Below, in pieces: positions 30,720 to 35,803 of a stretch of 64,000 nucleotides of DNA (the first letter of the stretch is position 1; the number at the start of each line of letters is the position of its first letter). The notes below the pieces were generated by a model. It did not search any database, was not told where the DNA came from, and saw only the letters and a program-made list of their open reading frames with translations. This stretch comes from Effrenium voratum. Taxonomy: Eukaryota > Sar > Dinophyceae > Suessiales > Symbiodiniaceae. A program made the translations under genes and the position numbers. Location: positions 586,867 through 650,866 of the forward strand of contig CAUJNA010003013.1 in the NCBI GenBank assembly GCA_963377175.1, given 5' to 3'.

Positions 30720-31065
30720 GTTCTGCAGTTATAGTCTACTACTATATCAGTTAGCAGCAGTTAACTTGACTTAGCATTTTCTCGTTTTAGTTATTTTAGT
30801 TACTTTAGTTGTCCGAAATTTGGGCATTTCTGCCAAAAGTGTGTTAGCTTGAAAAACGCTGCGAAAAGCATGAGTTTTGAAGCAAAAATGCTTTGTCGCG
30901 CGTAAATGATGACGTTTGTATATGCGTATATTTCTAGTGTTTTGATTTTTGTTGGAGTGTGTACAGTTCGTGTTAATGCGCGGCTGAGCCGCGCATTTCG
31001 GCAGCAGAAAATGCTTGCTTTATAATACTAACAATAAATATATATGCTCACACCCCCCATGAACT
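30720..31065. other. AT-rich stretch with inverted CATATATA/CCCCCC motif
   Basis: TAGTTATTTTAGTTACTTTA-type sequence. At about 31,040-31,063 it ends TATATATGCTCACACCCCCC then ATGAAC, the reverse complement of the GTTCATGGGG...TGTGACCATATATA motif seen at about 15,199 and 35,497. Confidence 0.6.
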
Positions 31066-31072
31066 TCTTTTT

Positions 31073-32315
31073 GGGTGAAAAAGCAATCTACTAAGGCAAT
31101 TTACCGAAAAAACCTGCACAGATCTGCTCAAAGCAAAAAAGCCTGCTTCTGTGAGAATGCGCCACAATGAAATTCTACATCTGCATCAAGCAATGAAATC
31201 TTCCATCTGTGCGCATCTCCGTCATATAACGACATTTGAGGGACCAGCAACCGAAGTTCCTTGTTGCAATCAACATGAGTGGCAGCATGTGCTGAGCATG
31301 GACATAGCGAGCACTGCTCTTGCACTTATGCATGCACAAGGTGTATGCTAGCATTCAGGCTCAAGCGCTCACTCTCTTTGTCTTGGCTAACAAGCTTTTG
31401 GGCAGATGGCCGCGCTTGTCTCGGGTGATGTGTCTCTGGAGAACGTTCAGGAGACGCTGTCAAGGCTTGTCCTGTACCCCACAACCAAGCATACGTTCCA
31501 TGAAGCCAGTGAGGGCCGTTGGGCGCGCTCGACCTCCCTGCGCACGAGATGACAGCAGCAGGGGTGGCAAAGTGTGTGGTGGAGATTATCATGGACGTTG
31601 CCAGGCCAGTGCCTTGGGGGCAAGTCAAGGAGGTGCTTCTTTCTGGCAAGATGGACAGCCCCCTGCCAGAACCTTACGGGTTGAAGAAGTACCATGGCGC
31701 GCCTTTCCAGTTGGACATTGCCATCTTGAAGCAGGAGAATGACAAATTCTGCCTCGTCAAGATCATTAACTTCAAGCACGAAGATCAGCGACGTAGCACC
31801 TCCTTGGCTTGCCCCCAAGGCACTGGCCCGGCAACGTCCATGATAATCTCCACCACACACTTTGCCACCCCTGCTGCTATCATCTCGTATGTAGGGGGGT
31901 CGGTCCCGCACTGGCTTCATGGAACGTATGCTTGCTCGTGGGGTACAGGACAAGCCTTGACAACGTCTCCTGAACGTTCTCCAGAGACACATCACCCGAG
32001 ACAAGCGCGGCCATCTGCCCAAAAGCTTGTTAGCCAAGACAAAGAGAGTGAGCGCTTGAGCCTGAATGCTAGCATACACCTTGTGCATGCATAAGTGCAA
32101 GAGCAGTGCTCGCTATGTCCATGCTCAGCACATGCTGCCACTCATGTTGATTGCAACAATTATATGACAGAGATGTGCAGATGGAAGATTGCATTGCTGG
32201 ATGCAGATGTATAATTTCCTTGTGACGCATTCTCACAGAAGCAGGCTTTTTTGCTTTGAGCAGATCTGTAGGTTGTTTTTGAGGAAATTGCCTTAGTAGG
32301 TTGCTTTTTCACCCC
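31073..32315. mobile_element. Foldback element with 0.55-kb inverted arms (1.24 kb)
   Basis: The left arm (31,073-31,637) starts GGGTGAAAAAGCAATCTACT. The right arm (31,795-32,315) ends with the inverted equivalent AGTAGGTTGCTTTTTCACCC. The arms are almost fully complementary and surround a 157-bp unpaired centre (31,638-31,794). The right arm lacks about 40 bp found in the left. This is the structure of a foldback or long-TIR MITE-like element. No target-site duplication is obvious. The mirrored arms make near-identical open frames on both strands (31,519-32,094 plus; 31,447-32,100 minus). Confidence 0.88.
31405..31785 (+). CDS. Possible captured gene fragment inside the foldback element
   Basis: In the left arm, after TTTTGGGCAG, ATG opens MAALVSGDVSLENVQETLSR then LVLYPTTKHTFHEASEGRW. 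In another frame, across the centre, CVVEIIMDVARPVPWGQVKE, LPEPYGLKKYHGAPFQLDIA and KQENDKFCLVKIINFKHEDQ follow. The second peptide is strikingly protein-like and crosses the non-repeated 157-bp centre, which the mirror-image effect cannot explain. It may be host coding sequence captured by the element, or a relic of the element's own gene. A frameshift or intron near 31,540 would join the parts. No family is recognised. Confidence 0.4.
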
Positions 32316-32518
32316 TCGGTGCATGCATGTAGCCAGCATGGAAGTTTTGCAGAGAGGCGCAGAGTTCTGATGAGAAAGAAGCTGTGCGCCGCACTGATGC
32401 TCTGCAAGCATATGCTGACTACGCATGCGCCTAGCTCTTCCAAGAAATCATCCGAAATAGAATTCATCGGAAATATAACAATGCAACTTATATGAAAACA
32501 CCGAAACAAAAAAACAAT

Positions 32519-32546
32519 AAAAAAAAAAAAAAAAAAAAAAAAAAAC
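32519..32546 (+). repeat. Poly-A tract
   Basis: About 27 A residues preceded by AACAAAAAAACAATA. It could be the retained tail of a retroposed transcript or LINE/SINE insertion on the plus strand. No target-site duplication is obvious. Confidence 0.85.
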
Positions 32547-32854
32547 AACTAGAGGACGATTGGCCCGAAAGCCTTTTTCCCCAGGTGCTCATCCAGCCGC
32601 GGAGACACCTTTTTACATCGCTGCGGCGAGCGTGTCTGCGCGCGGCGATGCTCAATGTGTATTGTCACACGAGAGCTCCATCTCATCGTCCTACGAGAGG
32701 AAACATGGCAGTGCTCGATCCCACATATTTACATCCGTTAAAACAAGAAGAGTAAATCGCGTAAAGCTCGAAACGAATTACAAGCAAAAGGAAAAGAAAT
32801 CAATAGCAAAGCTTACACGACGGCCACAGTTTCTGCAAAGCACGCTCGCGCAAC

Positions 32855-33318
32855 TTAGCTCTGTGCAAGATGGCTCTGCGCAGCTTGGCTCTGTGGAAGT
32901 TGGCTCTACGCAGGCTACTTTTCGCGAGTGGCTCTGCGCAACTGGCTCTGTGCAAGTTGGCTCTGCACGAGTCTGCTCGGCGCAATGTGCTTTGCACGAA
33001 CTGCGCCGCGCGATTTCTCACGAAAGTGGTCTGCGCAAGCTGCGTTGTTCCAGGCTGCTGCGCGCAAGTTGCTCTCTGCAAGCTGCTGCACGCAAGTTGC
33101 TCTGTGCAAGTTACTCTGCGCAAGTGCTCTGAGCAAGTTGCTCTGCGCAAGTGCTGTGCGCCAGTTGCTCCGTGCAAGCGCTTTGCGCATGTGCTCTGTG
33201 CAAGTTGGTCTGTGCAAGTTGCTTTGCGCAAGTGCTTTGTGCAAGTGCTCTGTGCAAGTTGCTCTGCGCAAGTTGCTCTGCGCAAGTGACTCTGCGCAAG
33301 TTGCTCTGCGCAAGTGCT
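32855..33318. repeat. 14-bp tandem repeat (CTCTGCGCAAGTTG), copy B-private array
   Basis: About 33 units of a 14-bp repeat, same family as 14,505-14,760. Because 14 is not a multiple of three, the translated pattern has a 14-residue period, and all frames on both strands are mostly stop-free. This feeds the longest open frame in the window (493 codons from 32,928), which is therefore not called. Confidence 0.92.
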
Positions 33319-33319
33319 G

Positions 33320-33560
33320 CCGGAGCTGTGGGAATGTACTTCGCGTACTATTTTTGTACTTGAAAGTTGCGATTTTCCAGCCGGAGCTGCGGGAGTGTGC
33401 TCCGCGTACCACGTTTGTACTTAAAAGTTGCGATTTTCCAGACGGAGCTGCGGGAGCACGCTCCGCATACTTAAGAGTTGCGATTTTCCAGCCGGAGCTG
33501 CAGGAGCACGCTCCGCGTACTACGTTTGTACTTGAGAGCTGCGATCTTCAAGCCGGAGCT
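33320..33560. repeat. 66-bp tandem repeat (AGTTGCGATTTTCCAGCCGG)
   Basis: Four units of about 60-66 bp: GTTGCGATTTTCCAGCCGGA, GCTGCGGGAGCACGCTCCGC, GTACTACGTTTGTACTT. It directly abuts the tRNA-like sequence. Confidence 0.9.
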
Positions 33561-33564
33561 GCCG

Positions 33565-33637
33565 CGGACCAGGGGGGAATCGAACCCACGACTGCGGGAT
33601 TGCGAAAGCAGGCGCGCAAACCACGAGACAACTTCCA
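33565..33637 (-). tRNA. tRNA-like sequence, probably degenerate or a SINE head
   Basis: On the minus strand the sequence has a perfect B-box (GGTTCGATTCC) in a T-arm with four of five stem pairs, and an A-box-like GTCTCGTGGTTTGCGCGC upstream at the right distance. A CTGC/GCAG pair could be an anticodon stem with an enlarged loop. The acceptor ends (GGAAGTT and CTGGTCC) pair poorly, and no anticodon can be assigned. It fits a tRNA pseudogene or the promoter part of a tRNA-derived SINE better than a working tRNA. Confidence 0.4.
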
Positions 33638-33770
33638 AAGGCCATTTCGCGAGCAACAAAATCGCACGGCGCCACAGCGAGAGCGTTTCGACACGCGCTA
33701 TTTTTGCAGAGGGTTCGCCGAGACTAAGAAGAATTCGCGTGGCGCCACAGCGAGAGCGCTTCGACACGCG

Positions 33771-34312
33771 CGATCTCCGCAGAGGGTCGCGCGGGCACCG
33801 CAAAAAACGCAAAAACAAACTCGAGTTTTTGCACCTCGACCACGCCGATCCCCGCAGAGGGTCGCGCGGGCACCGCAAAAACCGCAGAAAAAACCTCGAG
33901 TTTTTGCACCTCGACCACGCCGATCCCCGCAGAGGGTCGCGCGGGCACCGCAAAAACCGCAAAAAAAAAACCTCGAGTTTTTGCACCTCGACCACGCCGA
34001 CCTCCGCAGAGGGCCGCGCGGGCATATCAAAAAACGCAAAAAAAAACGAGTTTTTGCACCTCGGCCACGCCGATCTCCGCAGAGGGTCGCGCGGGCATAT
34101 CAAAAAAGCGCAAAAAACTTGAGTTTTTGCACCTCAACCACGCCGATCCCCGCAGAGGGTCGCACGGGCATATCAAAAAACGCAAAAACCTCGGTTTTTT
34201 GCACCTCGACCACGCTTTTTCCGCAGAGGGTCGCGCGGGCGCCGCAAAAAACGGTTAAAACAAAAAAACTCGAGTTGTTGCACCTCGACCACGCCGATCC
34301 CCGCAGAGGGTC
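33771..34312. repeat. GC-rich minisatellite, copy B version (about 75-bp unit)
   Basis: Eight units with GATCCCCGCAGAGGGTCGCG and GAGTTTTTGCACCTCGACCA but only one CTCGAGTTTTTGCAC module per unit, giving a shorter period than copy A. Several units replace GGGCACCGC with GGGCATATC. The right flank (GATCGTCGGCAACATCCCCA) equals that of copy A. Confidence 0.92.
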
Positions 34313-34469
34313 GCATTCCCGATCGTCGGCAACATCCCCACCCCCCGCCTTAAAAGAGATTCTTAAGACGGAGCTCTTTCTCTTTCTTTCCCGCGCGTTA
34401 AGTACTTAACCTAACTTACTTAACCTAGCTTACACAGCTGCTACCGCCGAGCCTCTACACCTAGCTTAG

Positions 34470-34745
34470 CTTAGCTCTATGCACCTAGCTCTATGCACTT
34501 GGCTCTATCTATGCAGCTGGCTCGCTGCACTTCGCTCTTTGCACTTGGCTCTGTGCACTTAGCTCTGTGCACTTGGCTCCTTGCACCTCGCTCTTTGCAC
34601 TTCGCTCTGCGCACTTGGCTCCATGCGTATCTCCATGCTGGTGACTCTGCGCAAGTATCTCCATGCTGGTGACTCTGCGCAAGTATCTCCATGCTGGCAT
34701 CTCCACGCTGGTGACTCTGTGCAAGCTACTCCGCGCAAGTTGACC
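34470..34745. repeat. 14-bp tandem repeat, copy B
   Basis: Counterpart of 14,505-14,760 with expanded CTCTGCGCAAGTAT / CTCCATGCTGGTGA units. Confidence 0.9.
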
Positions 34746-34749
34746 AAGA

Positions 34750-35110
34750 GCTCCGCACGGAAGAGCCCTTCGCAATGCTTTCGGGAAAAAAACTCGAGAA
34801 AACCAAAAATCCAAAAATCCAAAATTATGAGACCTATGTTTGGTTTGGGCTCATTTTTTGTTTTTTGTTTTCCCAATGTTTTTTGTTTTTGTGGTTTTCC
34901 TTGGTTTATTTGGATTTTTGGTTTTCTGGGTAACATACCTCGTAAAAACAAAAAATCTTGTGTTTTTGTTGGATTTTTATGGCCATGACATAGAAAAAAC
35001 AAAATTTCCGTTTTTTGTTTTTGTCAAAAATCTAGAAAAAACCAAACGAAAACCCAATAAAACAAGAAACGTTGAGAAAACCAAAAACCAAAAAAATTAG
35101 CCCAAACCAA
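34750..35110. repeat. Phrase duplicated in copy B (AAACCAAACATAGGTCT region)
   Basis: The phrase AACCAAAAATCCAAAAATCC and its inverted form TTGGATTTTTGGTTTTCT occur on both sides of 34,800-35,160, and ATTATGAGACCTATGTTTGG near 34,825 is the inverse of CCAAACATAGGTCTCATAAT near 35,105. Copy A has only the right half (14,790-14,860). Copy B therefore carries an extra inverted segment of about 300 bp. Confidence 0.7.
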
Positions 35111-35803
35111 ACATAGGTCTCATAATTTTGGATTTTTGGATTTTTGGTTTTCTCGAGGGTTTTTGGGCTTCTATGAGTTCAGCTGAAACATAGTATAAAA
35201 CTGTAGACAAACTATTGAATGTTGCTATAAATCCATGAAACAGTGAAATTCGCACAAAACCTAGGTTTTGCAGCAGTTTTCACAAGGTGTGGTAGGTACC
35301 ATCTACAGAAAACACTGTAATTTTCAGTGTTTTTGTAATTTTCAAGTTTTTGTGTCAAACCAGATACGTAGCCAAGACGAAAATCATCAACTTGAGGCGT
35401 CAAAAACCATTCGATCATTTATGGCTGTATCCAGCATAAAAACATCACAAAACACCGTAAATTACAGTCTTTTCTTATGATTTGTAGATCAGAGGTAGTT
35501 CATGGGGAGGGGTGTGACCATATATATACATATAGATATAGATATATATATATATATATATATCCATATATTTACATGAATTGTGCACGTTCTATGTCAT
35601 TGTATACAGCCGTGCTGTTTACGCGGCATGGCTGCGCGAGCACCATTTTTTACTCCAGGCGCAGCAGAGATTGATCCGTCTCCCACAGCCACCAGCACGG
35701 GTGCAAAGCCTCCCGGACGCACAGCTCCGTCACGGTCTTCACGTTGGAGCACCACGACGCACCATCTGACGCGCGCGCCTTACAACGCAGGCATGCGTGA
35801 AGC

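Follow-up and report, generated by a model that had tools for sequence, protein, structure and literature searches.

The palindromic segment at positions 31073 to 32315 of a 64,000-nucleotide stretch of Effrenium voratum DNA (hereafter the window) very probably belongs, as its core, to a non-autonomous element derived from a dinoflagellate DNA transposon with two genes. The interior of a founder element would have been replaced by an inverted copy of the element's left end, after which the founder moved. The two genes of the parent are termed here ORF1 and ORF2. Relatives of the segment were sought in a genome of 1.16 Gb and 3,699 contigs (designated below by C and a number).

Architecture of the palindrome

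The palindrome proper (31073-32314) consists of two arms of about 0.5 kb around a 157-nt centre (31638-31794) in the repeat search. The initial annotation had described such arms, and they proved real by repeat search, by alignment, and by a count of the 15-mers that have their reverse complement within the segment (556, whereas none of 200 single-base shuffles had more than 2). The description of the arms as almost perfectly complementary suits their middle, but not their outer and inner parts: the repeat search resolves blocks of 255 nt at 98%, 137 nt at 89%, and 115 nt at 91%, plus a 20-nt block at 90%, while a global alignment gives 496 identities among 518 aligned bases, with 22 mismatches and 49 gap columns. 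The centre, which had been thought unique, is matched by other copies of the element, to 31754 in C3130 and to 31792 in C112. C3130, which lacks a right arm, aligns unbroken to 31039-31754 at 92% identity, and so left arm and centre form one continuous piece of an element. The outer junction of the right arm joins the element's left end to DNA lying just past the ORF2 stop codon; in C1350 and C112 the 32315 side of this junction follows the stop codon uninterrupted.

Table 1. Features of the palindromic segment and of the transposon derivative enclosing it (positions in the window)
Feature	Position	Strand	Basis
Whole transposon derivative, 4,474 bp, in (TA)n	31046..35519	+	Homology to other copies and both terminal repeats
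Left terminal inverted repeat, GCTCACACCCCCCATGAACTTC	31046..31067	+	Pattern scan of ends
Left arm, holding the element's 5' region and the beginning of ORF1	31073..31637	+	Repeat search and arm alignment; unbroken with C3130 up to 31754
Start of ORF1 in the left arm (MAALVSGDVSLENVQETLSRLVLYP...)	31406..31520	+	Comparison with C3130, from whose frame that of the window departs after about 31515
Centre: ORF1 continued, second half of the predicted Rep-like N-terminal domain	31638..31794	+	tblastn; matches of C3130 and C112
Right arm: left end of the element copied a second time, inverted (31637 back to 31073)	31795..32314	-	Repeat search and arm alignment
Outer junction CACCC/CTC/GGTGCATG, left end joined to DNA just past the ORF2 stop codon	32314..32315		Identical in C803
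3' region of the element after ORF2	32315..32541	+	32315-32537 is 92% identical to C1350
Tandem-repeat-rich DNA, 2.24 kb, without match in other copies	32542..34785		Repeat search and copy comparison
Right subterminal region	34786..35494	+	Matches C803, C112, C3157, and C1350; partly C3363 and C3669
Right terminal inverted repeat, a mismatched inverse of the left repeat	35495..35519	-	Pattern scan of ends

The enclosing transposon and its ends

Other copies of the element are homologous from 31034-31039 on the left to 35539-35560 on the right (35560 being the end of the query), and both limits fall within TA tracts. The sequence GGGTGAAAAAGC at 31073 had been taken for the end of the element; both the homology and the terminal inverted repeat begin at least 27 nt further out. 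A foldback (FB) transposon, whose ends are its long inverted arms, was considered and rejected, since here 27 nt of the element lie outside the arms on the left and 3.2 kb on the right.

Terminal repeats were scanned by pattern in 17 loci (for the window copy, in its two end regions), yielding 14 left and 11 right ends, one of the latter from extra DNA, or 13 and 10 distinct ends, as C213 repeats C1350. The left ends of C803, C3669, and C757 were missed by the pattern; those of C803 and C3669, copies whose ends are decayed, are visible with a looser one. TATA stands at the border of all 14 left and all 11 right ends found, and the ends start with GG (10 of 11 right) or GC (12 of 14 left), counts that include C213 as a repeat of C1350 and in which the outer limit is blurred by the TA tract. 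A target site duplication is not legible in the (TA)n, where a duplication of TA only would be indistinguishable from the target. Every pattern-found end lies in (TA)n, so either the element strongly prefers such targets or the TA repeats are part of it.

The 2.24-kb tract 32542-34785 is probably a later insertion; it holds 14-30-bp GCTCTGCGCAAGTT-like tandem units and a 73-bp array. A further inverted repeat, with 81-nt arms at 93%, lies at 34786-35164 and occurs several times, in both orientations, in C1350. No Rfam family reached the gathering score in 30900-35700.

ORF1 and its predicted fold

The centre does continue a protein-like frame, as had been noted (ORF 31519-32094, + strand), and in a tblastn search residues 22-110 of ORF1 match 31513-31782. 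The parent gene that the initial annotation had envisaged was found by translated search: 19 stretches, distributed over 16 contigs with the window included, match the 80-aa text, and on 13 of the 15 other contigs the matched stretch is free of stops (the exceptions being C112 and C1129). The text of the centre matches the N-terminus of open ORF1 frames, the longest being 604 aa at C3265, 512 aa at C3370, and 385 aa at C3102; a homologous gene thus exists, and its frame is conserved in other copies.

ORF1 is predicted to adopt the fold of the Rep proteins of CRESS-DNA viruses, with a nuclease-like domain followed by an SF3-type ATPase. The fold comparison matched 373 viral models at E<=0.001, and among the best 50 of these all 23 with a name are Rep proteins, 22 from CRESS, circular-DNA, or uncultured viruses and one from a giant virus; the best PDB match by fold is the Vientovirus Rep (E 7.4e-05). 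CRESS Rep proteins are marked by an HUH motif and a motif-III tyrosine. In an alignment of 36 ORF1 sequences (the query and 35 of the 70 relatives found), the Walker A motif and the motif C Asn are retained in most, but, unlike in CRESS Rep, the HUH histidines and the conserved motif-III (catalytic) tyrosine are absent from the aligned motif regions. A second difference from CRESS Rep is that the Pfam matches are weak and point to general ATPase families, among them PF01695 (weak, in 9 of 36). On the strength of this last family an IstB-like ATPase was considered, and set aside for the Rep fold; no IstB chain is among the PDB matches listed. PDB searches by sequence gave weak matches, which for ORF1 fell mostly on Lon protease in the region of the Walker A motif. 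No useful match to the window frames, or to single ORF1 or ORF2 sequences, came from Pfam or NCBIfam.

ORF2 and the two-gene parent

With the window and C3669 set aside, 11 of 14 ORF1 places have ORF2 downstream on the same strand: it is present in C3130, C47, C3102, C3265, C3370, C646, C3112, C3101, C112, C1613, and C3345 and absent from C757, C3282, and C1129. This count starts from the ORF1 places, and it includes pieces of ORF2 in C3130 and several other places where the gene is split by frame changes. Terminal repeats of the same kind, together with (TA)n, adjoin most of the ORF1 loci examined, and in C3265:58297-64138 both terminal repeats occur with ORF1 and ORF2 frames of 604 and 409 aa. 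The ORF1 frame of this copy departs from its relatives near its end, so the element need not be active.

Because ORF2 follows in 11 of 14 places and terminal repeats stand beside most of the loci examined, the mirrored gene is the transposon's own ORF1. The earlier suggestion of a gene fragment captured and mirrored by a foldback transposon is therefore right as to the mirroring, but not as to capture (the gene being the element's own) or as to foldback (the arms falling short of the ends); a Pack-MULE-like capture was dropped on the same ground, the relatives found being the transposon's own ORF1. Exon-like text is indeed present, in interrupted form, as would be expected if a foldback or Pack-MULE-like transposon had taken up part of a host gene. 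This origin is nonetheless extremely improbable, given the association of the ORF1 relatives with ORF2, terminal repeats, and (TA)n, and given that the protein relatives with an organism name are unnamed products of dinoflagellates.

ORF2 folds like a DDE transposase/integrase and is distantly IS1595/Merlin-like. It has an RNase-H-like core, and in an alignment of 53 sequences (the query and 52 of 167 relatives found) each of four zinc-ribbon-type cysteines occurs in 51-53 sequences, the presumed third catalytic residue is Asp in 52, and PF12762 (DDE_Tnp_IS1595) is weakly matched in 6. DUF1936 is matched in 7 of the 53 (best E 6e-05), and further Pfam families are matched too. Among the 120 relatives listed of the 167 found, six bear the UniRef label 'ISXO2-like transposase domain' and 17 an organism name, all of these being dinoflagellates (Symbiodinium, Prorocentrum, and Polarella). 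In the genome ORF2 has at least 127 matching stretches, 104 of 286 candidates having been scored. Twelve near-full-length matches lie in 446-aa frames (one with a TGA) and have nearly equal protein-match scores, which suggests a recent spread of this subfamily; it may have been active recently.

Merlin-like transposases have been published from Symbiodinium (PMC8101967), and ORF2 resembles the Merlin/IS1595 group in its cysteines and its RNase-H-like core, PF12762 being weakly matched in a few sequences. Elements of that group have terminal repeats that start with GG and target site duplications of 8-9 bp. The parent differs in its presumed third catalytic residue, in the insertion in (TA)n, and in a left end that mostly starts with GC; and whereas the Merlin/IS1595 group has a single transposase gene, here ORF1 precedes ORF2 in most ORF1 places. 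The section of the Symbiodinium paper on these elements describes transposase genes, with one family having an overlapping antisense ORF that was judged to be due to chance, and mentions no accessory gene (PMC8101967). In its gene content, and in showing no obvious target site duplication, the parent resembles the geminivirus-like transposon of the truffle Tuber melanosporum, which is described as having a Rep-like gene and transposase genes between terminal inverted repeats (PMC3198968). The truffle element is fungal, however, and its Rep is geminivirus-like by sequence, whereas ORF1 is Rep-like by fold alone.

Copies in the genome and the founder

A DNA search with the segment found at least 27 matching stretches on at least nine contigs, the window's included, and these represent at least eight distinct sites, because C1350 and C213 are identical across 9,261 bp. 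The latter identity reflects either duplicated assembly sequence or a very recent segmental copy. The 600-nt flanks of the eight sites are unrelated, save for one 58-nt match of 79% (the right flanks of C3130 and C3363 being left out). The palindrome is present at three of the sites, namely the window, C803, and C3669, while C3157, C3363, and C1350 carry plain internal deletions of the same element, with the end of ORF2 retained in C1350.

With some duplicated sequence in the assembly (C1350 and C213), one might ask whether the palindrome was falsely joined from two copies. Such an artefact is hardly credible: 22 aligned bases distinguish one arm from the other, three contigs with unrelated flanks have this layout, and the outer junction is common to two of them. 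In the window and C803 this junction shares a C before GGTGC, where the uninterrupted C1350 and C112 have G or A; as the junction, including that C, is common to both, these two copies descend from one founder. In C3669 the right arm has no outer part, and the 32315 junction is missing with it, so that its descent from the same founder would follow from a few shared bases and the arm layout. From these comparisons we infer that one founder palindrome formed and then moved. The centres differ in size, from 157 nt in the window to about 30 nt in C3669 and 12 nt between unequal arms in C803 (where the inner ends are about 50 nt apart), and two of the three palindromic copies have lost the greater part of the centre as well as portions of the ends. 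The smaller centres of C803 and C3669 are consistent with the trimming of an unstable palindrome.

Single bases of the arms bear on the same history. A derived base at 31106 is common to the right arms of the window and C803 (the site is missing in C3669), and another at 31186 occurs in all three right arms and in the left arm of the window; the base at 31366 is common to both window arms and the right arm of C803, and absent from the right arm of C3669. At 31161, 31436, and 31587 the two arms of the window share bases private to that copy, and a simple simulation gave 0.00015 for at least three such coincidences; these few sites suggest sequence exchange between the window arms. The left-arm marker bases 31116 and 31220 are weak evidence, because they occur also in some non-palindromic copies. 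Recent exchange had been considered from the high identity of 31261-31515 as well, and this argument was dropped, as much of the block is nearly invariant in all copies; the support for exchange thus comes from the three private shared bases. The part of the block upstream of ORF1, 31261-31386, is almost invariant in every copy that has it, more so than the adjoining coding part, and is perhaps a promoter or a protein-binding site.

Origin of the palindrome

We propose that the founder lost its interior (the rest of ORF1 and all of ORF2) and received in its place an inverted copy, about 0.55 kb long, of its left end, leaving the 157-nt piece of ORF1 as a loop. The duplication may have arisen from interrupted repair, in which synthesis proceeding inward from the left end would have switched back onto the same end and then been joined to the other side. 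Having retained both ends, the founder could have been mobilised to new sites by the transposase of a related copy, with the centres of the two other copies trimmed later. The derivative would then have no function of its own and would be a passive element with two ends and no gene.

Some viruses with proteins related to CRESS Rep replicate through hairpins, and the predicted Rep fold of ORF1 raises the question of whether palindromes arise from fold-back replication by the ORF1 protein and not from break repair. We give this origin little credence, as ORF1 lacks the HUH histidines and the conserved catalytic tyrosine, and a single founder event is evident. A bolder version is also very unlikely: the parent would be a hybrid of a DDE transposase and a Rep-type helicase with a decayed nuclease centre, the helicase would copy the element and sometimes fold back to yield palindromes, and these might give hairpin RNA against ORF1, so that the element would have bred its own mobile repressor.

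Comparison with Mu killer

In layout, the closest match to the window copy is Mu killer, described as a derivative of maize MuDR in which part of the interior is deleted and one end, along with the start of the gene beside it, is duplicated in inverted orientation; it silences MuDR by way of proposed hairpin or antisense transcripts (PMC3440606). The window copy is likewise an inverted duplication of one end and a gene start, with the interior lost. It differs from what is described of Mu killer in that its right arm stops 27 nt short of the outer end of the terminal repeat and the element's own right end is kept, in that its arms are about 0.5 kb long (about 1.3 kb in Mu killer), and in that the palindrome is present at three sites; the silencing is described for Mu killer.

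A transcript through the palindrome would fold into a hairpin of about 0.5 kb directed against the start of ORF1, and the segment could accordingly be imagined as a mobile silencer whose hairpin is processed into small RNAs that silence ORF1-bearing relatives, as was proposed for Mu killer and MuDR. The shared layout (PMC3440606), arms that span the 5' region and the start of ORF1, the hint of exchange between the window arms, and the presence in the genome of one Piwi-domain stretch above the Pfam cut-off would all agree with this role. Against it, the arms have diverged by their mismatches and gaps, the two other copies retain little of the centre and have incomplete ends, and the ORF1 copies with the longest frames (C3265, C3370, and C3102) are not among the contigs matched in the DNA search with the segment, so that small RNAs from the arms may match them poorly. 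The long hairpin is a proposal in the case of Mu killer too, for which antisense transcripts are favoured as the cause of part of the effect (PMC3440606). A silencing role is thus unlikely, and we retain the passive derivative of a two-gene transposon as the preferred reading.

Significance

Parts of this picture are in print: the plan of Mu killer, the Merlin-like transposases of Symbiodinium, and the truffle element with Rep and transposase are each described in the papers cited above. In open-licence PMC, covered partly through best-ranked matches, no publication came up that describes a dinoflagellate element carrying the two genes, or palindromic derivatives of such an element.

The palindrome indicates that a transposon in a dinoflagellate, a member of the lineage that includes coral symbionts, can give rise to a long hairpin locus and carry it along; such loci are a raw material for RNA silencing. 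The parent, with its Rep-like gene and transposase, is more interesting than the palindrome: an abundant transposase family is often paired with what is predicted to be a remote fold cousin of the replication protein of single-stranded DNA viruses, and the pairing of ORF1 with ORF2 bears on how Rep genes and transposases combine.
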